Part shown: positions 36,440-49,710 of the stretch, piece by piece
Position numbering within the stretch: position 1 is the first letter of the stretch
Layout of the letters: every line of letters starts with the position of its first letter
Source: Klebsiella sp. BIGb0138
GTDB lineage: Bacteria; Pseudomonadota; Gammaproteobacteria; Enterobacterales; Enterobacteriaceae
NCBI RefSeq assembly: GCF_004342285.1
Contig: NZ_SMCV01000009.1
Coordinates: forward strand, 124,001 to 188,000
Reading direction: 5' to 3'
Length of the DNA: 64,000 nucleotides
The notes under the pieces: model-generated
Seen by the model: the letters and a program-made list of their open reading frames with translations, nothing else
Databases searched by the model: none
What the model was told of the DNA's origin: nothing
Made by a program: the position numbers and the translations under genes

Positions 36440-36913
36440 TCAGCGGGGCGTGGCGCGTGCGAGACGGGGATCAAAGGTAAAGGGATACTGGCGCACGGAG
36501 GCAAGGGCCTCGCTGAAAGCGGGATGCAGCGGGTTTAGAATGGCGTTGTTTTCATAGGGAATAATGCAGGAGGGTAACATCAGTGCCATGCCGCTGCCCG
36601 ACTGCAGCCAGCCGGTGCCCAGATCCATTGTGGAAACGGGCATCGGATTTTCCTGCCAGTTATCCGGCAGCCACTGTTTATCGAGCGATTCCACTTCACT
36701 GTCCGCTATCTCGATGCTATACAGCTGATACTGGTTGAGGATAGTTTCATTTTTGACATGAACCAGGATCTCCAGCGACGCCAGAGCGATGGAGGTGGAA
36801 ACATAGACAGCCGGGTGCCCCTGGTGATTCCAGCGTCCGCCGTACTGGTTGGCCCCGCTTCCCGTCCAGGCTTCGCTGGCGTAACGGCCGCTCACCAAAC
36901 GATAGAAAATCAT
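36440..36913 (-). CDS. RES-domain toxin
   Basis: A 157-residue RES-family protein, the toxin of RES/Xre modules; studied members degrade NAD+ or ADP-ribosylate a host enzyme. The Arg-Glu-Ser signature is seen as GGRWNHQGHP (Arg), SLEILVH (Glu) and later Ser residues. YVSTSIALASLEILVHVKN is the family core. It is encoded after the antitoxin with a four-base ATGA overlap. Full length, no frameshift, so probably functional. Confidence 0.92.
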   Translation of the reverse strand: MIFYRLVSGRYASEAWTGSGANQYGGRWNHQGHPAVYVSTSIALASLEILVHVKNETILNQYQLYSIEIADSEVESLDKQWLPDNWQENPMPVSTMDLGTGWLQSGSGMALMLPSCIIPYENNAILNPLHPAFSEALASVRQYPFTFDPRLARATPR

Positions 36914-37353
36914 GCAAAGACGCCGTGTTCCAGACGACCAATCAGGTCAGTCACTTCCAGCGCGCCGCTCTCGGTAGCAATCAGATCGATGGGGGCGACA
37001 TTGCCCAACCCTCTGACCGGCGACTGCAGCCAGTCGTAGGCAGCCTGCTTGCTGCCAAAATAGTCGACGGCGGCATCCAGAACCCTGACAAAACGCGCCA
37101 CACGTTCGCTTTCGCCCGGCGTCAACGTACCGCCCGCGCTCTTACGCCGGGCAACGTTACGCTCATTAATGCCGGTGATGCGCAGGATGTCGGTTTTCGA
37201 CATTTCCGTCCACTCGTGAATATTATCCAGAACGCTGACCGGCAATCCCATACTCAACAGCTCAATCAGCTGCATACCCCGATTTGCCGGTAGCCCGGCA
37301 TAGCGCCACAGCGCCTTATCGGCAGGTTGCTGTGCAGGAACCCAGGTTTTCAT
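36910..37353 (-). CDS. Xre/MbcA/ParS-type antitoxin of the RES pair
   Basis: A 147-residue antitoxin with an N-terminal helix-turn-helix-like region (about residues 45-75, WTEMSKTDILRITGINERNV) and the C-terminal DUF2384 domain (VLDAAVDYFGSKQAAYDWLQSPVRGLGNVAPIDLI) that binds the RES toxin. Start 37353 is chosen for the AGGAGGAG site directly upstream. Its promoter region contains TGACATTTGTCA, a likely autoregulatory site. It lies directly beside the leader of CRISPR array 1 and is transcribed away from it; a decayed copy of its residues 24-51 lies at the same position beside array 2. Confidence 0.92.
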   Translation of the reverse strand: MKTWVPAQQPADKALWRYAGLPANRGMQLIELLSMGLPVSVLDNIHEWTEMSKTDILRITGINERNVARRKSAGGTLTPGESERVARFVRVLDAAVDYFGSKQAAYDWLQSPVRGLGNVAPIDLIATESGALEVTDLIGRLEHGVFA

Positions 37354-37369: not shown

Positions 37370-37405
37370 TGACATTTGTCATACTTTATTATAGTCATTT
37401 GTCAG
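37370..37405. promoter_or_regulatory. probable operator of the RES/Xre module
   Basis: A perfect palindrome TGACATTTGTCA (37370-37381) is followed 12 bases later by a related sequence GTCATTTGTCA. Two phased sites in front of an Xre-family antitoxin fit autorepression. Confidence 0.55.
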
Positions 37406-37468: not shown

Positions 37469-37601
37469 AGACCCTTTTATTTGTCTATTTTGTAATTCAT
37501 TGATTTTTATTAATAATTATTGAGTGGTTGAAAAAAGGGTGTAGTGAAAAAATTTGAGGCATTTTACATATAAAACAAAGAGGTGAGTTGATATTATCTC
37601 A
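37469..37601 (+). promoter_or_regulatory. leader of CRISPR array 1
   Basis: AT-rich sequence that runs straight into the first repeat. It shares AGACCCTTTTATTT, TGATTTTTATTAA, ATATAAAACAAA and GTGAGTTG/GTTGAGTTG with the sequence before array 2, in the same order and spacing. This gives the array orientation and marks the integration end. IHF-type binding is likely from the AT content but no exact site is claimed. Confidence 0.8.
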
Positions 37602-39182
37602 GTGCACTGCCGTACAGGCAGCTTAGAAAGTTGGGTGCTTGGGGTGTCCGTATGACTATCGGTGCACTGCCGTACAGGCAGCTTAGAAATTGAGCCCGAG
37701 CTGATGCACGCGGGCGATGCGGTGCACTGCCGTACAGGCAGCTTAGAAAGCCCACGGCCAGAATCATCACCTGCTCACCAAGTGCACTGCCGTACAGGCA
37801 GCTTAGAAATGACAAGCAACCCCATCCAGACTCCAGCCCAGGTGCACTGCCGTACAGGCAGCTTAGAAATACAACACGGAGCGTGCCGCATGACAACTGA
37901 TGTGCACTGCCGTACAGGCAGCTTAGAAATATCGCATCATCGTTGTGGATTTGATAAGGCTGTGCACTGCCGTACAGGCAGCTTAGAAAGTACGAAATGG
38001 CCGAGTACATTGCGCTGTTGAGTGCACTGCCGTACAGGCAGCTTAGAAATGAAAACCAGAAAACAGGCGCTCAAAATTCCAGTGCACTGCCGTACAGGCA
38101 GCTTAGAAAAAACAGCGCCGCCAGTGCGCGATAGTTCTGCTGTGCACTGCCGTACAGGCAGCTTAGAAATTATTGGTTTAAAAAACATCAGCGAGAGGGT
38201 AGTGCACTGCCGTACAGGCAGCTTAGAAAATAAACATAACTTTGTGATCCCAGCACATAAAGTGCACTGCCGTACAGGCAGCTTAGAAACTGCGCCTCAT
38301 ACGACAGCCAGCGGTTCAGGAAGTGCACTGCCGTACAGGCAGCTTAGAAAAAACATCAGAGACAGGTCTTTTTCGTCATGCCGTGCACTGCCGTACAGGC
38401 AGCTTAGAAACATGCGGCCGGGAATTTATACGCCGTGCTGAAGTGCACTGCCGTACAGGCAGCTTAGAAACACGCCAGCGCCTTGTCTCGCTCGACGGCG
38501 TTGTGCACTGCCGTACAGGCAGCTTAGAAATTACTGGTGAGCTGGATCAGTCGGGCATCAATGTGCACTGCCGTACAGGCAGCTTAGAAAATTATGCCGA
38601 CGCTGCAGAGATGGAGATTGCAGTGCACTGCCGTACAGGCAGCTTAGAAATTGCAGGTACAGCGGGTTTGGCTTGATGCCGTGTGCACTGCCGTACAGGC
38701 AGCTTAGAAACACTGGTCCCGGCAAATGCCGAGCGCGTCACAGTGCACTGCCGTACAGGCAGCTTAGAAAATTATGCCGACGCTGCAGAGATGGAGATTG
38801 CAGTGCACTGCCGTACAGGCAGCTTAGAAATTGCAGGTACAGCGGGTTTGGCTTGATGCCGTGTGCACTGCCGTACAGGCAGCTTAGAAAATAACAGACG
38901 AACGCATTGAAAAAATAGCGGTGTGCACTGCCGTACAGGCAGCTTAGAAAATTGAACAACGCCGAAATTGGCTATCTGCAGTGTGCACTGCCGTACAGGC
39001 AGCTTAGAAATGTAAGTAATGGCTCTCTGGATGCCTCTGGAGGTGCACTGCCGTACAGGCAGCTTAGAAAACATCTGTTTTAGATCCGTCCAGCGGGATA
39101 CCGTGCACTGCCGTACAGGCAGCTTAGAAAATCAGCCTTAATCCCGGATACGATGCGATCGGTGTGCACTGCCGTACAGGCA
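37602..39182 (+). CRISPR. type I-F CRISPR array 1 (27 repeats, 26 spacers)
   Basis: The 28-base repeat starts GTGCACTGCCGTACAGGCAG and ends CTTAGAAA; CTGCC/GGCAG form the Csy4 stem. Spacers are 32 bases except 33-base ones at 38290 and 39131. Repeats are identical until the last (39164), which keeps only the first 19 bases, marking the trailer end. Spacers at 38591 and 38771 are identical, and so are those at 38651 and 38831, with a unique spacer (38711) between them. Open frames with a repeated HCRTGSLE or FLSCLYGSA pattern arise because the 60-base period is a multiple of three; they are not genes. Confidence 0.98.
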
Positions 39183-39333: not shown

Positions 39334-39900
39334 TTAATGCTGCAACACTTCAGCAAATTTTGCCAGCCATTGCGGATGCGCGGGCCATGCAGGGGCGGTG
39401 ACCAGGTTGCCGTCGACATGCGCCTGATCGATACCGATTTCAGCATAATGCCCGCCGCTGAGCCGCACTTCCGGCGCGCAGGCCGGGTAGGCGCTACAGG
39501 TCCGGCCTTTGAGTATGCCGGCGGCGGCCAGGAGCTGCGGGCCGTGGCAGACGGCGGCGATGGGTTTGTGTGCAGCGTCGAAGGCCTGAACCAGTTTGAG
39601 CACCTCGTCATTCAAGCGCAGATATTCCGGCGCTCGACCGCCGGGGATCAGCAGGGCATCATAATCCTGTGCTTTTACTGCGGCAAAATCGGCGTTGAGG
39701 ACAAAGCGGTGTCCGGGTTTCTCGCTATAGGTCTGGGCACCGTCAAAATCATGGATCGCCGTCATGATATAGTCGCCTTTGCTCTTGTCTGGGCAAACCG
39801 CGTCAACCTGATGGCCAATCATCTGCAATGCCTGAAACGGCACCATGGTTTCGTAATCTTCGGCATAATCACCGACCAGCATCAGAATTTTCTTGCTCAT
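39334..39900 (-). CDS. DJ-1/PfpI family protein
   Basis: A 188-residue protein of the DJ-1/PfpI superfamily. The nucleophile elbow is [14 protein letters not shown] with the conserved Cys and His, and [13 protein letters not shown] supplies the conserved glutamate region. Members are peptidases, glyoxalases or deglycases; activity cannot be chosen from sequence. It converges on array 1. A hairpin GGACCGTC/GACGGTCC at 39279-39299 lies after its stop and may slow transcription into the array. Confidence 0.88.
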
Positions 39901-40519: not shown

Positions 40520-41503
40520 ATGCCTCCAAATACTATTCCTCCTTCTGATTTAAAAACTATCCTTCATTCTAAACGCGCTAATATTTACTACCTTGAAAAA
40601 TGCCGTGTACAGGTGAACGGTGGCCGGGTGGAGTATGTTACCCAGGAGGGCAAAGAATCTTTTTACTGGAACATCCCTATTGCCAATACGACTGCGGTGA
40701 TGCTGGGTATGGGGACCTCCGTTACGCAAATGGCGATGCGGGAGTTTGCTCGCGCCGGGGTGATGGTCGGGTTTTGCGGAACGGATGGCACACCGCTGTA
40801 TTCCGCAAACGAGGTGGATATTGATGTCTCATGGCTTAGCCCACAGAGCGAATACCGGCCGACCGCCTACCTGCAAAACTGGGTCTCGTTCTGGTTTAGG
40901 GAAGACAAACGATTACAGGCGGCAAAACGGTTTCAGTTTATACGACTACAGCAAATCACCCGGCACTGGACGGGCGTACGGGCGCAGCGAGAAAGTCCAT
41001 TTCAACCTGATAAAGTGATGCTACAAAATATCCTCGAACGCGCCAGGCAGGCAATGGAAGAAGCGCCGGATCATACCACCCTGATGTTGCAGGAGGCACA
41101 GCTCACCAAATCGCTCTACAAGCTGGTCAGCCAGACCGTAGGCTACGGGAGCTTTACGCGAGCTAAACGAGGAGACGGGGCAGACATGGCGAACCGCTTT
41201 CTCGATCAGGGTAATTATCTGGCTTATGGACTGGCAGCTGTGGCGGCGTGGGTCACGGGTATTCCTCATGGTCTGGCGGTGATGCATGGTAAAACCCGGC
41301 GTGGTGGTCTGGTCTTTGATATAGCAGATCTCATCAAAGATGCGCTGGTTATGCCGCAGGCGTTTGTCGCAGCCATGGAGGGTGAAGACCAACAAATGTT
41401 CCGCCAGCGATGTATCACTACCTTCCAGCAGGCAGATGCACTGGATGTAATGATCAATACCTTGCAGGAGACCTCGCAATCACTCGCGGGAGGAGTGCAA
41501 TGA
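40520..41503 (+). CDS. cas1: Cas1, type I-F CRISPR integrase
   Basis: A 327-residue metal-dependent integrase that inserts new spacers at the leader end. Type I-F traits: length, the opening SDLKTILHSKRANIYYLEKCRV, the glutamate in LMLQEAQLTKSLYK, and His plus Asp in LAVMHGKTRRGGLVFDIADLIKDAL, which form the metal site. The ATG at 40520 follows AAGGG; the frame is open 26 codons further up across the inverted repeat. It overlaps cas3 by four bases (ATGA). Confidence 0.96.
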   Translation: MPPNTIPPSDLKTILHSKRANIYYLEKCRVQVNGGRVEYVTQEGKESFYWNIPIANTTAVMLGMGTSVTQMAMREFARAGVMVGFCGTDGTPLYSANEVDIDVSWLSPQSEYRPTAYLQNWVSFWFREDKRLQAAKRFQFIRLQQITRHWTGVRAQRESPFQPDKVMLQNILERARQAMEEAPDHTTLMLQEAQLTKSLYKLVSQTVGYGSFTRAKRGDGADMANRFLDQGNYLAYGLAAVAAWVTGIPHGLAVMHGKTRRGGLVFDIADLIKDALVMPQAFVAAMEGEDQQMFRQRCITTFQQADALDVMINTLQETSQSLAGGVQ

Positions 41504-44500
41504 ATGTGCTAATCATCTCCCGAAGTACCAAAAATGCGCGTGAAGAAAGCTGCCGGATTATCGATCAGTTTGCAGAACGCACCGGTGATGCCGCATGGCA
41601 AACGACTATCACTCAGGAAGGCGTCAACACCCTGCGTAAATTGCTGCGTAAAACGGCGCGGCGTAATACGGCAGTTGCCTGCCACTGGTTGAAGAAAAAT
41701 GGGCAAACTGAACTGTTGTGGATAGTCGGCAACCTTCGTCGTTTTAATGCTCAGGGACGCGTGCCAACCAACCGCACGATGGCTGATGTCCTCAATAGCG
41801 GTGCGGAACATTACTGGCACAGCACGGAAAGTATCGCTTTGCTGGCGGCGATTGCTGGGTTATTTCACGACTTTGGCAAAGCGGGAAAATGCTTTCAGCA
41901 GACTCTGAAAGGGAAAAGTAAGCACGTTTGTCAGCCTTATCGCCACGAGTGGATCTCTGTTCGCTTGTTCCAGGCATTCGTCGGTGAATGGACCGATGCA
42001 CAGTGGCTGGCGGCCCTGGAGCATCTGAAATCATCTGATGAAAAGATCATATTAGATCGACTTGTCACCGATCTACCGGATAAGCCTCGTGGCCGGTCTA
42101 CGCATCCTGACAATCGGAATCCGCTCAGCACGTTACCGCCAATTGCCCGGACCGTCGCCTGGTTAATCCTTTCACATCACCGCATTCCTCAGTCGCTGTC
42201 ATCGACACCGCAGCTGGAGTATTGCGAAGGCTGGATCGACAGACAACTCAATGTTGACTGGAATTCTCTGAACCACAAAAATCACCCTTGGGTAGATGTC
42301 GATTATAAAAATGTCTGGCTATTTCCTGACGGTACGCCGCTGCAAAGTGCCATATGGTGCGAGAAAGCCAGACAGATAGGGCGGCGTGTTAAAAATTCCA
42401 TCTCATTGCAGCAATACGGCAAGTTGGATAACCTGTTTACCGCTCATCTGGCGCGCATGTCCTTGATGCTTGCCGATCACTTTTATTCCTCGCAATCCCC
42501 TGAAATTACCTGGCAGGATTCCCATTATAATGTGTGGGCCAACAGCGACCGTCAGACTAAACAGCTGAAACAAAAACTGGATGAGCACAATACGGGTGTT
42601 GCGCATCATGCTTTACTATTAGGGCGTTCTTTACCGCGATTACGCAGCTCGCTGCCAGCGATAGCGCGGCATAAAACATTCCGCGAGCGGGCAAAGGATG
42701 CGCGTTTTAGCTGGCAAAACAGAGCATGGGATGTGGCATCGGCTCTACGCGAGCGCAGCGCAGCGCAGGGTTTTTTCGGCGTTAATATGGCCTCCACCGG
42801 TTGCGGTAAAACGTTCGCTAATGCCCGGATTATGTATGCGCTAGCTGATGAGCGTGAAGGCTGTCGCTTCAGCGTTGCGCTTGGACTACGTACGTTAACC
42901 TTGCAAACCGGGCAGGCGTTACAGTCTCGTCTGGGGCTGGATGAAGACTCGCTGGCGGTGGTTACTGGCTCAGCTGCCGTTCGGGAGCTCTACGAGCAGC
43001 ATAGTGACGCTCAGGATAATAATAGCGTCAGCGAGGAAGCGTTTTTCTCCAGCCACCAGTATGTACATTACGAGGGGAGCATAGGTTACGGGATCGCACA
43101 GCAATGGCTGGCTGCGGAGCCCACCCTTAACCGTCTGGTCAGTGCACCGGTTCTGGTGACGACTGTTGACCATCTGATGCCTGCGACCGAAGGCGTGCGT
43201 GGCGGCAGACAGATCCCCGCGATGCTACGTTTGTTGACCAGCGATCTGGTACTGGACGAACCTGATGATTTCGACATCGACGACCTGTACGCTCTCTGCC
43301 GGCTGGTTAACTGGGCGGGGATGCTGGGATCGCGAGTATTACTCTCATCCGCAACGCTGCCGCCCGCATTAATCGAGGCGTTGTTTGAAGCGTATCGAAA
43401 AGGACGGGAGGCGTATCAGTCGGCATGCGGCATTGCAGGCAAACAAGTGAATATCTGCTGCGCCTGGTTTGATGAATATGGCGCGCAGTCTCAGGATATT
43501 TCGGACGACGCTCTTTTTCGCCACGCACATGCGCAGTTTGTGGTCCGACGCGTCACACATTTACCGCGGCAGCCACGGCTAAGGTTGGGAAAACTCGCGG
43601 TAGTCGAGCCCGCAGCGACAACGAGTACGTCTGTGATTTCTGCAGTCGCCGGGACGCTGTATCAGCAGATGCTGGGATTGCATCTGCAGCATCATACAGA
43701 CCATCTAAACGGGAAGACGATATCATTTGGTCTGATAAGACTGGCAAATATTAAACCCCTGGTTGCCGTCGCACAGGCATTGATGGCAATGCCTGCCCCG
43801 CAAAACTACTGTATTCACTATTGCGTTTATCACAGTCAACATCCGCTAGCTGTGCGTTCAGCCATTGAAAAGCGACTGGATCATGCATTTACTCGCCATG
43901 ATCCGCAGGAGATTTGGCACTTGCCGGAGGTTAAAGAGGCGCTGGCATCGCCCAGACAGCACCACCTTTTTGTTGTGCTGGCCAGCCCTGTGATTGAAGT
44001 CGGTCGGGATTTTGATGCCGACTGGGGAATTATCGAACCCAGCTCTATGCGTTCGCTGATCCAGTTTGCAGGACGAATTCAGCGTCACCGTCAGCAAGTC
44101 CCGGCCAGTGAGAATCTGGTCATCCTGAACCGTAATCTACGTGCGCTTCTTGGCGAGAAGGTGGCGTATTGTCAGCCAGGTTTTGAAGCCGAATCTTATC
44201 GACTTCGCGAGCACGACTTACGTGAACTGCTGCCTGAGGCGACTTACCGCACTATTAATGCAGCCCCACGCATTGTGGAGGACTTCCCTGATAATGCTCT
44301 CGCCGTGCTGGAACATTCCCGGCTGCGCGCCGCATTACTGGAGGGGAGAGATAAATCCGCTGTGACCGCCGCTCTGTGGTGGCGTTTACCGATAACATGG
44401 AATGGTGAAATGCAGAAGCGCACCCCGTTTCGACGTGCATCTCCACAGGAATCTTTTTTTCTGACAATGAAAGAGGATGACGATGAACCCGAGTTTTGCC

Positions 44501-44754
44501 TGATGCAGGATGACGGCATGCTCAAGCCTTCTGAGCGCTTCGAACTCCATGAGTTTGTGATGGCGGAAGGCGTACAACCATGGTTTGAAATAGATTACCG
44601 GGAAGTGCTGCTGGAACTGGCGGAAATGCGTCAGATGGAGATTTCCAGCGTGTCGCGTCGTTACGGAGAGATCACGTTAAGGGTTGGAGGAAAGGGGGAC
44701 TCAATAGAAAAATGGCGATATCACCCGGTGCTGGGTGTGTTCAGGGAATATTAA
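41500..44754 (+). CDS. cas3: Cas2-Cas3 fusion, type I-F helicase-nuclease
   Basis: A 1084-residue type I-F fusion. Residues 1-~90 are Cas2-like (MNVLIISRSTKNAREESCR), used with Cas1 in spacer integration. The HD nuclease follows with FHDFGK at His123-Asp124. The helicase has Walker A ASTGCGKT (residues 431-438), a DExD-type box LDEPDD at Asp586 and SSAT at 616-619. QFAGRIQRHR near residue 855 is the C-terminal helicase motif VI. All key residues are present, so interference should be functional. Overlaps cas1; csy1 follows 19 bases later. Confidence 0.96.
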   Translation: MNVLIISRSTKNAREESCRIIDQFAERTGDAAWQTTITQEGVNTLRKLLRKTARRNTAVACHWLKKNGQTELLWIVGNLRRFNAQGRVPTNRTMADVLNSGAEHYWHSTESIALLAAIAGLFHDFGKAGKCFQQTLKGKSKHVCQPYRHEWISVRLFQAFVGEWTDAQWLAALEHLKSSDEKIILDRLVTDLPDKPRGRSTHPDNRNPLSTLPPIARTVAWLILSHHRIPQSLSSTPQLEYCEGWIDRQLNVDWNSLNHKNHPWVDVDYKNVWLFPDGTPLQSAIWCEKARQIGRRVKNSISLQQYGKLDNLFTAHLARMSLMLADHFYSSQSPEITWQDSHYNVWANSDRQTKQLKQKLDEHNTGVAHHALLLGRSLPRLRSSLPAIARHKTFRERAKDARFSWQNRAWDVASALRERSAAQGFFGVNMASTGCGKTFANARIMYALADEREGCRFSVALGLRTLTLQTGQALQSRLGLDEDSLAVVTGSAAVRELYEQHSDAQDNNSVSEEAFFSSHQYVHYEGSIGYGIAQQWLAAEPTLNRLVSAPVLVTTVDHLMPATEGVRGGRQIPAMLRLLTSDLVLDEPDDFDIDDLYALCRLVNWAGMLGSRVLLSSATLPPALIEALFEAYRKGREAYQSACGIAGKQVNICCAWFDEYGAQSQDISDDALFRHAHAQFVVRRVTHLPRQPRLRLGKLAVVEPAATTSTSVISAVAGTLYQQMLGLHLQHHTDHLNGKTISFGLIRLANIKPLVAVAQALMAMPAPQNYCIHYCVYHSQHPLAVRSAIEKRLDHAFTRHDPQEIWHLPEVKEALASPRQHHLFVVLASPVIEVGRDFDADWGIIEPSSMRSLIQFAGRIQRHRQQVPASENLVILNRNLRALLGEKVAYCQPGFEAESYRLREHDLRELLPEATYRTINAAPRIVEDFPDNALAVLEHSRLRAALLEGRDKSAVTAALWWRLPITWNGEMQKRTPFRRASPQESFFLTMKEDDDEPEFCLMQDDGMLKPSERFELHEFVMAEGVQPWFEIDYREVLLELAEMRQMEISSVSRRYGEITLRVGGKGDSIEKWRYHPVLGVFREY

Positions 44755-44773
44755 TAAATTTCCAGGAGCTGAT

Positions 44774-46081
44774 ATGTCTATAGAAGCATTGACCGCTTTT
44801 ATCGCTGACTATATTGCCGGCCGACGGCAAACGAAGCTGGAAGCGTTTGATAAAAAGGTCGCGAAGAGCAGCGGTGAGGATAGCGCCTCTCTGGCGGCAG
44901 AGCGCCGCGAACTAGAGCTCAGCTATGAACCGAAAACATGGCTTACGGCTGCGGCGAAGCGAGCCGGGCAAATCAGCCTTGTGACTCATGCGGCAAAATT
45001 TACCCACGGAGATTCGAAAAGTAGCAGTATTTACAGTGAGACCGTAGTGAACGAAGGGTATCTCAACAGCGCGGCATTGCCAACACTGGAGACTGATGCG
45101 GTAGGAAACGCGGCTGCGCTGGATGTGGCTAAACTGCTGCAAACCTGTGTGGACGGCGATTCGCTGCTGTCGTGCTTGAATCGCAGTGACCACAGACCGT
45201 TTGCCGCCTTTACCGATGATGCCGCACAACTGGATGAGTGGATTAGCGGCTTTTCCTGCGCGCTGAACACCGGTGAGCCGACTTCGCACAAGCTGGCGAA
45301 ACAAAGCTATTTCCCGGTGAAGGATGGTTATCATTTATTGAGCCCGCTGTTTGCAACCTCGCTTGTTCACGCTCTGCACCAGAAAATGGTTGCGTTACGC
45401 TTTGGTGACGATGTTAAAGCTATCTGGAAGGCTCGACGTGAGAAAACATGGCATCCGCGTCCGCTGGTACTGTTTCCGTATTTGGCAGAAATGCACTTCG
45501 GCGGTACCAAACCGCAGAATATCTCCTGGCTGAACAGCGTGCGCGGTGGGCGCGTCTGGCTGCTTTCCGCACAGCCGCCACAGTGGAAGCGTGTTGATAA
45601 ACCACCTGTCAATTTGCGATCTATTTTTACGCCTGGAAGTCAGTTTGACCGGCGAGCGAACGGGGTTATTCAGCTACTGGTATCCCTGCTGACAAGAACG
45701 GGGGATTACAGTAACCACCGAATTCGACAGGCACGAGATGAGTATATTGATACGCTCATTGATCTTTTGTTTGTTGTTGCCGCAGACCTTCAGCGGCAGG
45801 AATGGCAGCATTGGACGCTACAGTGCCCGGACCTGAGAAGGCATCAGCAATTGTGGCTCGATCCCTGGCGGACAAAAACCGATGAAATATTCCGGATTGA
45901 GCGTGATAAAGGCGACTGGCAGGACCGTGTGGCGGAGGATTTTGCATTGTGGCTAAACGCACGCCTGCGTAAAGCGTTACCGGAAGTCGGTGCTGCCGAG
46001 AAACGAGAATGGGAAACGCGTGAACGGCTACGAACTAATCTACGTGAGCTTGAGAAAATCATACGGGAGGCCCTGAGATGA
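44774..46081 (+). CDS. csy1: Csy1 (Cas8f), large subunit of the I-F Cascade
   Basis: A 435-residue subunit that, with Csy2, holds the crRNA 5' handle and reads the PAM. FTPGSQFDRRANGVIQLL and the C-terminal ERLRTNLRELEKIIREAL are family stretches, as is SYFPVKDGYHLLSPLFATSLVHAL. Start 44774 follows CCAGGAGCTGAT; the frame opens 13 codons before. The end overlaps csy2 by four bases. Confidence 0.93.
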   Translation: MSIEALTAFIADYIAGRRQTKLEAFDKKVAKSSGEDSASLAAERRELELSYEPKTWLTAAAKRAGQISLVTHAAKFTHGDSKSSSIYSETVVNEGYLNSAALPTLETDAVGNAAALDVAKLLQTCVDGDSLLSCLNRSDHRPFAAFTDDAAQLDEWISGFSCALNTGEPTSHKLAKQSYFPVKDGYHLLSPLFATSLVHALHQKMVALRFGDDVKAIWKARREKTWHPRPLVLFPYLAEMHFGGTKPQNISWLNSVRGGRVWLLSAQPPQWKRVDKPPVNLRSIFTPGSQFDRRANGVIQLLVSLLTRTGDYSNHRIRQARDEYIDTLIDLLFVVAADLQRQEWQHWTLQCPDLRRHQQLWLDPWRTKTDEIFRIERDKGDWQDRVAEDFALWLNARLRKALPEVGAAEKREWETRERLRTNLRELEKIIREALR

Positions 46082-47004
46082 GTTCGCTGATCTTTCTTCG
46101 ACGCATGCGGGTGGAAAATGCCAATGCGATTGCGGGCATCACCTGGGGCTTTCCGGCAATAACCCATTTTCTCGGTTTTACGCACGCCCTGTCACGTATG
46201 CTGACTCAAACCCATGAGCTCCGGCTTGATGGTTGCGCGGTGGTATGCCATGGACATCAAATTCATGCGCATACATCCGGCCGTGACTATCAGTTTGCGC
46301 TGACCCGTAATCCGCTGACCCGAGAAGGTAAAACGGCTTCTTTTAACGAAGAAGGGCGGATGCATCTGACGGTGTCGCTACTTCTTGAGTGTCACGGTGA
46401 AATTCCCTACGGCGAATATGGTCAACAGGAGCTGGCCGATTATCTGCTGGAAATTTGCCCGACTCTCAGGCTGGCTGGCGGAAGCATTGTCAGTATTGAG
46501 GATATTTCTGTACTGGATATGCCGGCCTCAGGAAGAGATATGAGTCGCCTACAGTGGCGATTGATGCCTGGTTTTGTGCTGCGTGACCGTAGTGCCTGGC
46601 TGGGCGAACACCATCAGACGCTTCTGGCAGCGAACCCGCAGGCCACATTATTGGATGCCTGGCTCGATTTTGCCTCGCTGAAAATACAGGCGGAGAGTCC
46701 GGAAGAGGGCGAGATACACGAAGGCGATCCTGCTACGTGGCATCGTGTCCCCAGACCACGTCCCGGGTATCTGGTCCCATTGATGACCGGATATCAGCGT
46801 ATCTCTGAGCTGTATGCGCCCGGTGTTGTGGCGAACGCACGCGATGAGCTGACCCCCTTCGCTTTCACTGAGGCGGTCTACGGTATTGGCGAATGGTGCG
46901 GATTGCACCGGATTCATTCGTTGGAAGAGATCTTCTGGCGCTATCACACCACTGACACCGGTTATTACTGCCGGATCGCGGGCGCACCACTGGCGGCCGG
47001 GTAA
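46078..47004 (+). CDS. csy2: Csy2 (Cas5f), I-F Cascade subunit
   Basis: A 308-residue RAMP protein that binds the crRNA 5' handle together with Csy1. It opens LIFLRRMRVENANAIAGITW and contains GFPAITHFLGFTHALSR, both typical of Csy2. Start ATG overlaps the csy1 stop (ATGA), so 1:1 synthesis is favoured. No defects seen. Confidence 0.94.
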   Translation: MSSLIFLRRMRVENANAIAGITWGFPAITHFLGFTHALSRMLTQTHELRLDGCAVVCHGHQIHAHTSGRDYQFALTRNPLTREGKTASFNEEGRMHLTVSLLLECHGEIPYGEYGQQELADYLLEICPTLRLAGGSIVSIEDISVLDMPASGRDMSRLQWRLMPGFVLRDRSAWLGEHHQTLLAANPQATLLDAWLDFASLKIQAESPEEGEIHEGDPATWHRVPRPRPGYLVPLMTGYQRISELYAPGVVANARDELTPFAFTEAVYGIGEWCGLHRIHSLEEIFWRYHTTDTGYYCRIAGAPLAAG

Positions 47005-47025
47005 CATAAATAAAAGGATTAACAC

Positions 47026-48030
47026 ATGGCAAAGACTCCTACTGTCGTAAAAACGGCTTCTGTACTGGCATTTGAACGCAAACTGGCAACGTCCGACGCG
47101 GTGATGTATTCCGGAAGCTGGCAAGGAGGCGGCTGGCAACCGATCCGCATTCAGGAGAAGGCCGTACGCGGTACGATTTCTAATCGCCTGAAAAACGCGA
47201 TTACCAGCGATCAGACAAAGCTGAATACCGAAATTCAGAAAGCCAACCTGCAACTTGTGGATGTTGCCGCTCTCCCGGCCGATGCCGATACGCTACAGGT
47301 AAAATTCACCCTGCGCGTGTTGGGAAACCTCTCCATGCCGTCCGTGTGTAACGATCGCACATATCAGGATGCGTTACAGAAAGTCATCGATGGCTATATC
47401 AGCGAGCATGGTTTTGCGGAACTGGCTCGTCGGTATGCGACTAATCTGGCAAATGGGCGCTTTTTGTGGCGTAACCGCGTTGGTGCGGAAAAAATCACTG
47501 TTAAGGTAAAGGGCAGCCAGTCTTGGGTCTTTGATGCATACAGCTACACATTGCGTGACTTTACCGTCCAGGAGCAGGATACAGAGCTGAGTTCGCTGGC
47601 GCAGGAGATTGAAAAAGGGCTGCATGGCGATAGTTTTGTCTTGCTGGAAGTCGAGGCGCAGGTGTTGTTAGGCTCAGGGCAGGAAGTTTTCCCTTCTCAG
47701 GAGCTGGTGCTGGACAGCAACAGCAGCAAGAGTCGTCTGTTGTACCAGGTTGATAACGTAGCGGGAATGCATTCACAGAAAATTGGTAATGCGCTGCGCA
47801 CTATTGACACCTGGCATCCTCTGGCAGGTGAACTCGGGGCGATCGCCGTCGAACCTTACGGCTCGGTGACCAGCCGTGGCATCGCGTGCCGGCAGCCAGG
47901 AGATAAGATGGATTTTTATACCTTGCTGGATAACTGGGTAACGAAAGGCCAGCAACCGGATGTGGATCAGCAGCACTACGTGATGGCGATATTGATTCGC
48001 GGCGGCGTATTTGGCGAGAAGAGCGAATAA
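47026..48030 (+). CDS. csy3: Csy3 (Cas7f), backbone subunit of the I-F Cascade
   Basis: A 334-residue backbone protein, six copies of which coat the spacer part of the cr[22 protein letters not shown] at the start, [13 protein letters not shown] and the [18 protein letters not shown] segment are family hallmarks. A separate AAAAGGATTAACACATG ribosome site and a 21-base gap after csy2 fit its higher required dose. Confidence 0.95.
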
Positions 48031-48039
48031 GGAGCCGTT

Positions 48040-48594
48040 ATGGATCACTATCTGGAGATCCGCGTTCTTCCCGATCCTGAATTTGGTGAAGAGATGCTGA
48101 TGGCGGCGCTGTTCGCTAAACTGCATCGCGCCCTGGCGGAAAGAGGCAAGGGCGATATTGGCGTGAGCTTCCCTTTACACGGTGTGAAACCGGGCGCAAG
48201 CCTGCGTTTGCACGGAAGCGCAAAGGCGTTGTGCGAACTGGAATCGCTATCATGGCGCAGAGGACTGGGCGATTACTGCCAGTGTACGGAGGTGATACCC
48301 GTGCCTGAAGTCAAAGGCTGGCGTTGCGTGAGTCGTATACAGGTAAAAAGCAGCCCTTCGCGGCTATTGCGGCGTTCGGTGAAAAAGGGTTGGTTGACGG
48401 AGAAGGAAGCACAGCAGAGGTTACTCACTATGCAGCAAGAGCAGACGGATTTACCGTGGATTAATTTGCGCAGTCTTTCGAACGGGCAATCGTTCCGTTT
48501 GTTTATCCGCCATGGCGATATTCTTGCCGTTCCTGTTGGTGGTGAGTTTTCAAACTATGGGTTAAGTTCGACGGCAACGGTGCCGTGGTTTTGA
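48040..48594 (+). CDS. csy4: Csy4 (Cas6f), crRNA-processing endoribonuclease
   Basis: A 184-residue endoribonuclease that cuts the repeat at the base of the CTGCC/GGCAG hairpin and stays bound. The catalytic His29 (KLHRAL) is at the same number as in the P. aeruginosa enzyme. An arginine-rich helix, SRLLRRSVKKG (residues 107-117), should contact the RNA stem, and a serine lies near 147-151 as expected. Last cas gene; a hairpin follows. Confidence 0.95.
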   Translation: MDHYLEIRVLPDPEFGEEMLMAALFAKLHRALAERGKGDIGVSFPLHGVKPGASLRLHGSAKALCELESLSWRRGLGDYCQCTEVIPVPEVKGWRCVSRIQVKSSPSRLLRRSVKKGWLTEKEAQQRLLTMQQEQTDLPWINLRSLSNGQSFRLFIRHGDILAVPVGGEFSNYGLSSTATVPWF

Positions 48595-48601
48595 GATCGA
48601 C

Positions 48602-48640
48602 AACCGACGCCCGGTTTTAGGGGGTCGGTTCTCAATATTT
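48602..48640 (+). terminator. probable terminator of the cas operon
   Basis: AACCGACGCCC pairs with GGGGGTCGGTT (one G-G mismatch) around a seven-base loop; the tail CTCAATATTTT is T-rich but interrupted. Starts eight bases after the csy4 stop. Confidence 0.5.
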
Positions 48641-48718
48641 TGTCCATTTGTGAATATTACCCAGAACTCTGACGGGTAATCCTCTGTTCTGCAGCTAGAT
48701 GAGCTGCGTGACCCGATT
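48632..48718 (-). pseudogene. decayed fragment of the RES/Xre antitoxin next to array 2
   Basis: Minus-strand translation reads NRVTQLI, a stop, then LQNRGLPVRVLGNIHKWTKY and a stop. This lines up without gaps with residues 24-51 of the antitoxin at 36910-37353 (NRGMQLIELL, then SMGLPVSVLDNIHEWTEM), 17 of 28 positions identical. DNA similarity is also clear (about 35 of the first 40 bases from the TGAATATTA block). It has the same orientation and side relative to leader 2 as the intact gene has to leader 1. The rest of the antitoxin and the toxin are absent. Confidence 0.8.
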
Positions 48719-48767
48719 CGTGGGTAACTCACACTGTACCCATAGGCACGAGCAGGTGCTTTTTACT

Positions 48768-48899
48768 AGACCCTTTTATTTTCTCCGGTTGCAACTTACT
48801 GATTTTTATTAAGAGTAATGGCAAGACTAAAAGAGGGGGTAATGGATTATTTTTGGGTATTATTTATATAAAACAAATGGTTGAGTTGCTATGGCTTTA
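48768..48899 (+). promoter_or_regulatory. leader of CRISPR array 2
   Basis: AT-rich sequence with the same ordered blocks as leader 1 (AGACCCTTTTATTT, TGATTTTTATTAA, ATATAAAACAAA, GGTTGAGTTG) ending at the first repeat. Between blocks the two leaders differ widely, so this is an old duplication. Confidence 0.8.
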
Positions 48900-49710
48900 G
48901 TGCACTGCCGTACAGGCAGCTTAGAAACTGATGGTTGGTCGCGATGACTACCGGATTCGGTGCACTGCCGTACAGGCAGCTTAGAAACGTTTAACTTATT
49001 GATTAAATTGATATCTATGGTGCACTGCCGTACAGGCAGCTTAGAAATGCAGATTTATCCGGCTGGCATGCCAGCGCCAGTGCACTGCCGTACAGGCAGC
49101 TTAGAAACACCACCCGGGCGCGTATCCCCAGTGAACCGGGTGCACTGCCGTACAGGCAGCTTAGAAATAATGCACCGCATGCCCGCCCGCCTCGCAATAG
49201 TGCACTGCCGTACAGGCAGCTTAGAAACATGTGTTCCCGAGGTTTTTTACCGTTTCAGCATGCACTGCCGTACAGGCAGCTTAGAAAATCACCAACGGAT
49301 CGGTACGCGATACAAACAGGTGCACTGCCGTACAGGTAGCTTAGAAAACACCGGGGGCATTTACTTTGAACGACTTCTTGTGCACTGCCGTACAGGCAGC
49401 TTAGAAATGTTCCATGCGCTGTTGCCGGGAGGGATCTACGTGCACTGCCGTACAGGCAGCTTAGAAACTGAGCACGTTTCGTCATGATGTCGCCATAACG
49501 TGCACTGCCGTACAGGCAGCTTAGAAACTGCAGGTGGCTGACTAGTATCAGGCCTGTTTTGTGCACTGCCGTACAGGCAGCTTAGAAAGGAGTCGACGAT
49601 TTCGTCCAGGGGCAGCGTGACTAGTGCACTGCCGTACAGGCAGCTTAGAAAAATCGAGGAAACCACCGACGGGCCACTTCGCGTGCACTGCCGTACAGGC
49701 AGCTTATCAA
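48900..49710 (+). CRISPR. type I-F CRISPR array 2 (14 repeats, 13 spacers)
   Basis: Same 28-base repeat and orientation as array 1. Variants: first base A in the repeat at 49260, and a C-to-T change inside the stem (AGGTAGC) at 49320, which turns a G-C pair into a G-U wobble or mismatch. Spacers are mostly 32 bases, but near the trailer they are 33 (49528), 35 (49589) and 31 (49652). The last repeat (49683) ends TTATCAA instead of TTAGAAA. Irregular old end and regular leader end agree with the leader at the left. Confidence 0.98.

Follow-up and report, generated by a model that had tools for sequence, protein, structure and literature searches.

Toxin-antitoxin (TA) genes have already been reported beside type I-F CRISPR arrays. 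In several Pectobacterium I-F loci a VapC/VagC pair lies between CRISPR2 and CRISPR3, and the accessible part of the 2019 paper that describes it suggests a role in suicide on immune failure (PMC6963963), while what is available of two further papers places a TA at this same CRISPR2-CRISPR3 position, either the same pair or one left unnamed (PMC3630108, PMC3513311). In Acinetobacter, TA-related sequences are reported near 4 of 85 CRISPR-Cas systems, I-F loci included, with neither the families nor the exact place given in the accessible text (PMC11035748), and CreTA occurs at I-F loci (PMC10097628). CreTA, as portrayed in the accessible portions of these sources, is a type VIII system embedded in the CRISPR locus, usually around cas6, whose RNA toxin is repressed by a crRNA-like RNA. 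The accessible portion of a review covers CreTA, CreR and CrePA and does not mention type II pairs at leaders (PMC12737573). The locus described here resembles that of Pectobacterium in having a type II TA beside I-F arrays, and CreTA in having a TA embedded in the CRISPR locus. In contrast to the Pectobacterium pair, which belongs to another TA family and lies between two arrays, the pair considered here is of the RES-Xre family and is found between csy4 and a leader; moreover, the copying, decay and co-inheritance that we propose below are not described in the accessible accounts of VapC/VagC. In contrast to CreTA, it consists of two proteins, and we found no creA-like repeats with it. Within the open-licence literature, we found no report of RES-Xre genes beside CRISPR leaders.

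The window, a stretch of 64,000 nucleotides of Klebsiella sp. BIGb0138 DNA, contains a type I-F operon of cas1, cas2-3, csy1, csy2, csy3 and csy4 (40,520–48,594, forward strand), which encodes Cas1f, Cas2-3f and Csy1-4 and is accompanied by I-F repeats. CRISPR array 1 (37,602–39,182, forward strand), with 25 spacers and a truncated final repeat, is preceded by 133 bases of leader 1 (37,469–37,601, forward strand), and array 2 (48,900–49,710, forward strand), with 13 spacers, follows leader 2 (48,767–48,899, forward strand). Both arrays read in the same direction. Two adjacent spacers of array 1 are present twice (38,561–38,861), an internal duplication of the array. A DJ-1/PfpI family gene (39,334–39,900, reverse strand; PF01965, 7.4e-43) separates array 1 from cas1; such a gene also lies between array 1 and cas1 in Raoultella planticola and in genome G392, and in R. 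ornithinolytica it adjoins the TA genes at a site with no arrays or cas (L114, L115 and L124).

Upstream of leader 1, on the opposite strand from the arrays, lies an intact pair, here called TA1. Its Xre/MbcA/ParS antitoxin gene (36,910–37,353, reverse strand; 147 aa) comes first in the operon and overlaps the start of the RES toxin gene (36,440–36,913, reverse strand; 157 aa) by 4 bases. The toxin frame is open and matches PF08808 (1.6e-26) and the Res_ParT toxin model NF049844 (3.7e-50), both above cut-off, with 8gug, 6d0h, 6d0i, 9r35 and 6gw6 as structural relatives. The antitoxin carries the C-terminal toxin-binding domain (PF09722, 1.1e-15; PF20432, 9.4e-11), matches TIGR02293 and NF049845 when scanned from a longer ORF start, and has 8gug_B as a structural relative. 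Its ATG at 37,353 is preceded by an RBS-like GGAGG, with the listed ORF start (37,398) lying upstream. A promoter is predicted at 37,373–37,404 (reverse strand), where a -10-like TATAAT sits between two operator-like TGACAAATG repeats (37,373–37,381 and 37,396–37,404), and the two genes thus appear to form an operon with operator-like repeats at its promoter. The family models, the overlapping genes, the antitoxin-first order and the promoter repeats are all shared with the RES-Xre systems ParT-ParS and MbcT-MbcA. RES toxins of this family deplete NAD+. Unlike the known members, the pair here abuts a CRISPR leader and, as discussed below, was once present at both leaders. That an intact Xre/RES antitoxin adjoins leader 1, as an initial sequence-only reading of this DNA had held, is therefore borne out by the genes and their family models.

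The nearest named relatives of the pair are in R. planticola and R. ornithinolytica, with 97% identity at the antitoxin. Among three Raoultella, dN/dS is 0.07–0.13 for Xre and RES, and between G446 and E. cloacae it is 0.02–0.04 for the pair. Because the low Raoultella values include R. ornithinolytica, where the pair stands without arrays or cas, the coding sequences indicate that the pair is under purifying selection and is maintained for its own sake. We obtained zero DNA matches to RES-Xre in an E. coli genome collection, and every one of the 1,614 plasmid records with homologues fell below 60% identity; hence, no recent plasmid source was seen.

Between csy4 and leader 2, in the matching orientation and on the matching side of its leader as had been claimed, lies a fragment of a second antitoxin (48,624–48,727, reverse strand). 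The sequence-only reading equated it with residues 24–51 in a gapless match; its homology stands, whereas its extent has to be redrawn to approximately residues 14–53, with two stops and, in the DNA-level alignment, a one-base gap. Aligned with the TA1 antitoxin DNA, the fragment is identical at 78 of 103 bases and scores 44. The highest score among 5,000 dinucleotide shuffles is 17, and among 484 other stretches of the window it is 15; these controls rule out chance similarity. A whole-genome protein search also recovers it, as residues 14–53 with two stops (E 6e-7). The distance to the leader is about 137 bases shorter for the fragment than for the matching part of the intact gene, because the first codons of the antitoxin, the promoter and the operators are absent from this side. 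The same relic is present in R. planticola (L115), and the two relics are 82% identical (84 of 103 bases) whereas the intact antitoxin genes of the two genomes are 97% identical, the pattern expected if one copy is dead and the other living. The fragment is best explained as the decayed antitoxin of a second RES-Xre pair (TA2) that formerly stood between csy4 and the array-2 leader; considered jointly with the copied block and the addiction proposed below, we regard this explanation as evenly poised.

Related genomes retain intact pairs at this second position. A search of other Enterobacteriaceae I-F loci, which the sequence-only reading had put forward as a check, recovered pairs at leaders in seven other genomes: G363, G392, G406 (E. 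cloacae), G408 (E. quasihormaechei), G409 (Lelliottia), G446 and G455 all carry RES-Xre between csy4 and the array-2 leader, in the same orientation. Both genes are open in six of these seven and in 11 of the 12 genomes considered here (the window, R. planticola, R. ornithinolytica, G392, G363, G406, G407, G408, G430, G446 and G455), with G409 as the exception in each count. In G409 (L111, 10,003–10,467) the RES toxin has one in-frame stop, the antitoxin is open and an array of 67 repeats is adjacent. This stopped toxin is possibly an early stage of decay like that in the window, and its position beside so long an array implies that an array can persist without a working pair. The window and R. 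planticola have TA1 at leader 1 and the relic at leader 2, and R. ornithinolytica has TA1 only. G392 is their mirror image: its pair is intact at leader 2, whereas leader 1 has a remnant in which RES residues 1–35 (89% identical to the RES of the window) are fused to the antitoxin promoter with both operator repeats; leader 1 of G392, directly downstream, is 84% identical to leader 1 of the window, compared with 86% for that of R. planticola. The pair was therefore once present at both leaders in this group, and the window and G392 kept opposite copies. In four Enterobacter-group loci (L105, L106, L109 and L110), the small protein encoded by the reading frame before leader 1 does not, on visual inspection, resemble a TA.

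The linkage of the pair to I-F loci is real. In each of the 11 genomes found with a copy at least 85% identical, that copy lies at a locus that is, or is inferred to have been, of type I-F. Homologues that are 76% identical (G183, G193 and G334), in the same 100/100 clade as G363, lie away from CRISPR. Within the Enterobacter group (the genus of G408; 61 genomes), a copy of about 85% identity occurs in 7 and csy4 in 14, and five of the seven copies lie between csy4 and the array-2 leader; of the 20 genomes of the window's genus, 4 carry csy4 and 4 (the window, R. planticola, R. ornithinolytica and G392) an antitoxin with 88% identity or more. In the family sample of 392 genomes, csy4 was found in 68, the antitoxin family in 75 and both in 21. 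Among the 20 of these besides the window, one, G363, has the pair directly 3' of csy4, compared with a chance expectation of approximately 0.01.

The sequence-only reading offered two possibilities, that an antitoxin-leader-array block was copied to the other side of the cas operon or that a RES/Xre module was once linked to each array. Both find support, and we favor copying within the lineage, with modest support from the sequence comparisons. In the leader tree, the leader 2 sequences from the window and R. planticola cluster with the leader 1 sequences from these two genomes and from G392 (88/90), and in the relic DNA tree both relics join the Raoultella TA1 (80/89), with these supports resting on 104 to approximately 130 alignment columns. 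Consistent with this placement, the window relic is 75–77% identical to Raoultella TA1 compared with 59–66% to the other intact copies compared. The diagnostic sites, by contrast, are mixed: the window relic has 7 Raoultella-type, 2 TA2-type and 3 other states, and the R. planticola relic has 6, 4 and 2, respectively. The leader and relic groupings, seen in both Raoultella species, speak against the possibility that each leader gained RES-Xre separately, or that recombination replaced segments, with no block copy within Raoultella. That account would fit G392, whose Enterobacter-like cas genes and TA2 are found beside a Raoultella-like leader 1 and TA1 remnant and whose leader 2 is closest by identity to that of E. 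cloacae (76%; its position in the tree is unresolved); it would also fit the protein-level comparison, in which the window relic matched the G363 antitoxin best of all queries tried (50% over 42 residues). We consider separate linkage unlikely, though not implausible, and the mixed affinities of G392 do indicate that recombination was also in play.

The TA tree and the cas tree, the latter built without G363 and G048 (short cas pieces), show the same main groups, namely Raoultella, Lelliottia, and G392 with Enterobacter, and leave the order among these groups unresolved. This agreement suggests that the pair was apparently inherited or transferred with its cas locus. Because Enterobacter, Lelliottia, G363 and G392 carry the pair on the csy4 side, we infer that this is likely the older site. 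Under the favored model of block copying, an ancestor of Raoultella (and G392) would have gained a second block, with the csy4 side as the likely source and the array-1 side as the destination, after which one TA copy would have been redundant and free to decay.

It had also been proposed that a TA fixed to the CRISPR leader acts as an addiction element that protects the cas locus from loss. The pair does lie within or at the edge of the cas locus, and in the family sample the Xre family accompanies csy4 more often than chance would give (21 of 68 csy4 genomes compared with 54 of 324 others, p 0.01, a figure in which most cases are unlinked and kinship is uncorrected). However, TA presence does not go with cas retention, and the proposal is not supported: of the 11 genomes in which both genes are open, 4 are without all or most of the cas genes, and the TA is absent from 9 of the 14 csy4-bearing genomes of the Enterobacter group. 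R. ornithinolytica has no csy4 in its genome and no arrays or cas near the pair, keeps the pair and the PfpI gene, and shows a homology break relative to the window near the start of leader 1, which we read as loss of CRISPR-cas. G430 has the pair with about 40 bases resembling the csy4 3' end on one side and homology that ends before the leader on the other. E. sichuanensis retains the pair, the leader and one intact repeat, and csy4 is absent from its genome. G363 keeps cas1, a cas3 piece, a csy3 piece and csy4. The genomes with both genes open were found via the TA, such that losses removing the TA too would be invisible, and cas genes other than csy4 were sought within the fetched stretches. 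On these data, we judge retention of the entire cas locus through the TA improbable. The G363 locus (L048, 12,781–15,046) has a large internal cas deletion affecting cas3, csy1, csy2 and csy3, with both arrays and RES-Xre present.

Given the proximity of the pair to csy4 and the leader, we also considered whether CRISPR controls the TA or the TA controls the array. In a CreTA-like arrangement the effector or a crRNA would repress the TA, and CRISPR failure would free the toxin; known CreTA genes surround cas6, the same neighborhood as here, according to the accessible part of the Acinetobacter work (PMC10097628). One array-2 spacer does match 22 of 35 bases within the antitoxin gene beside CC, a score equalled by 1 of 200 shuffles of that spacer; as the best of 38 spacers tried, this match is not convincing evidence that the TA1 region is targeted. 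Ectopic creA-like repeats sought in six stretches were none of them clearly above shuffle level, with the best candidate, in the TA1 region of the window, matching at 18 of 28 bases and equalled by 4 of 100 shuffles. Furthermore, the toxin seen here is a protein and not a small RNA, and the pair comes with a protein antitoxin and a promoter of its own and persists in genomes that lack csy4. Together these observations make CRISPR repression of the toxin the least probable of the readings that we weighed. The converse coupling, in which Xre would bind upstream of the leader and so control transcription of the array or uptake of spacers, could account for the near-constant distance from the antitoxin start to the first repeat (237–251 bases in the window, R. 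planticola, E. sichuanensis and the seven csy4-side genomes). The operator-like repeats, however, occur at the TA promoter only. With one mismatch allowed, the -10 lies between two TGACAAATG repeats in the linked copies that we examined, except in G363, which has one, and unlinked homologues also have them (two in 5 of 9, one in the other 4), whereas neither leader of the window has any. Such coupling is accordingly very improbable.

RES-Xre is not the only TA family found between csy4 and an array. From the family, class and order samples we mapped 155 I-F loci, of which 122 have a multi-repeat array within reach downstream of csy4 (single repeat-like sites were not scored as arrays); the gap is at most 400 bases in 108, 400–700 bases in 6 and longer in 8. 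The family sample contributed 63 of its 68 csy4 genomes (the window genome and the weak matches G093, G206, G280 and G343 were left out), the class sample 30 of 35 and the order sample 71 of 84 (G605 via the class sample). Seven loci were dropped as duplicates of genomes already counted, G454 and G366, evidently one genome given their identical csy4 coordinates, were counted once per tally, and some loci extend just approximately 1.5 kb past csy4, where longer gaps would be invisible. TA pairs occupy five of the eight long gaps: RES-Xre in G363, HipBA in G267, a RelE/ParE-type toxin with an addiction antidote in G388, and a Gp49-type toxin with an HTH_37 antitoxin in both G693 and G711. By eye, the other three (L060, L075 and L081) hold nothing that resembles a TA pair, and two of them, L075 and L081, have a split or short csy4. 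A TA in the gap is therefore uncommon (5 of 122) yet accounts for most of the long insertions. The TA pairs of G693 and G711 are 80–81% identical compared with only 47% for Csy4, as if one TA module had entered the same gap in two distant loci. These two pairs (L139 and L148) begin approximately 80 bases downstream of csy4, on its strand, and are possibly cotranscribed with cas. Two gaps of the 400–700-base class hold a tRNA-Ser gene (L038, 15,168–15,255, and L040, 15,287–15,374, from G139 and G234).

As a control, we scanned the nearest ORF of 100 aa or more beyond csy4 in 20 loci; none matched a TA model at E 1e-5, and 6 of the 20 matched no model at all. Eighteen of these loci, including L053 with its lone repeat-like site at 2.1 kb, have no multi-repeat array in the downstream stretch covered (mostly 4.9 kb; 1.5 kb in L063), and the remaining two, L060 and L081, are also among the eight long gaps. 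The comparison of 5 of 8 long gaps with 0 of 20 controls (Fisher p 0.0006) is only indicative, because the control ORFs are at least 100 aa, come mostly from loci without an array and share two loci with the long gaps. In G715 (L136) and G563 (L144), TA-looking small genes lie beside csy4 with no array in reach; the proteins scanned (L136 against NCBIfam only, one L144 protein against Pfam and NCBIfam) matched no model and both loci were left uncounted, as was L168, with a lone ribbon-helix-helix match (E 0.004). We suggest tentatively, and as rather less than likely, that type I-F loci offer, between csy4 and the array-2 leader, a general docking slot for protein TA modules from several families. 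These modules would render the leader-array block addictive, and second CRISPR arrays would accordingly travel, be copied and persist in the form of TA-leader-array cassettes, independently of cas.

In much of the Enterobacter group, infA marks the end of the locus. Among the 14 csy4-bearing genomes of this group, 5 have the TA and array 2 (including G409 with its stopped toxin), 2 have array 2 only (G410 and G453), none has the TA only and 7 have neither (Fisher p 0.02); of the 10 genomes with infA in the stretch, 4 have both, 6 have neither and none is mixed (p 0.005); and within a 16-locus cas clade a TA or relic is present in 8 of 9 loci with array 2 compared with 0 of 7 without (p 0.001), although, the genomes being related, these Fisher tests count non-independent cases. 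The TA and array 2 thus mostly come and go together in the Enterobacter group. The block is not inseparable, since the neighboring array is absent from R. ornithinolytica and G430 although the pair is present, and E. sichuanensis has one intact repeat left beside its leader.

These patterns also bear on a simpler explanation, in which the csy4-leader gap is a harmless landing site and the TA, a selfish passenger, stays if it is addictive or otherwise useful, its CRISPR neighborhood being meaningless. The purifying selection on the pair in R. ornithinolytica, the homologues unlinked to CRISPR and the several TA families in the same gap are all in keeping with such a passenger, as is a study of Pseudomonas putida whose title calls chromosomal TAs 'rather selfish than beneficial' (PMC7280312). 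On the other hand, a passenger indifferent to its surroundings would hardly track cas in the main groups of the trees, be gained and lost mostly jointly with array 2, or have its close copies at present or former I-F loci in 11 of 11 genomes. We regard it as doubtful, though the foremost of the alternatives.

The explanation that we prefer is that the TA, leader and array are likely inherited as one block, with an autonomous and likely addictive pair whose redundant copy decayed; as a whole, we give it an even chance of being correct. By analogy with the family, RES would degrade NAD+ and Xre would hold RES in check, and deletion of the pair would be predicted to poison the cell or cost fitness while the toxin outlives the antitoxin. 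The pair would deter only deletions that remove the pair itself, and deletions that spare it would be tolerated; therefore, it can anchor its own block and not the cas genes. Bacteria often lose CRISPR systems. If this explanation is true, a TA pair that travels with a leader and array, and not with cas, would be a simple protein counterpart of CreTA. The states already seen in nature, TA1 only, TA2 only, TA without CRISPR and CRISPR without TA, make the idea testable.
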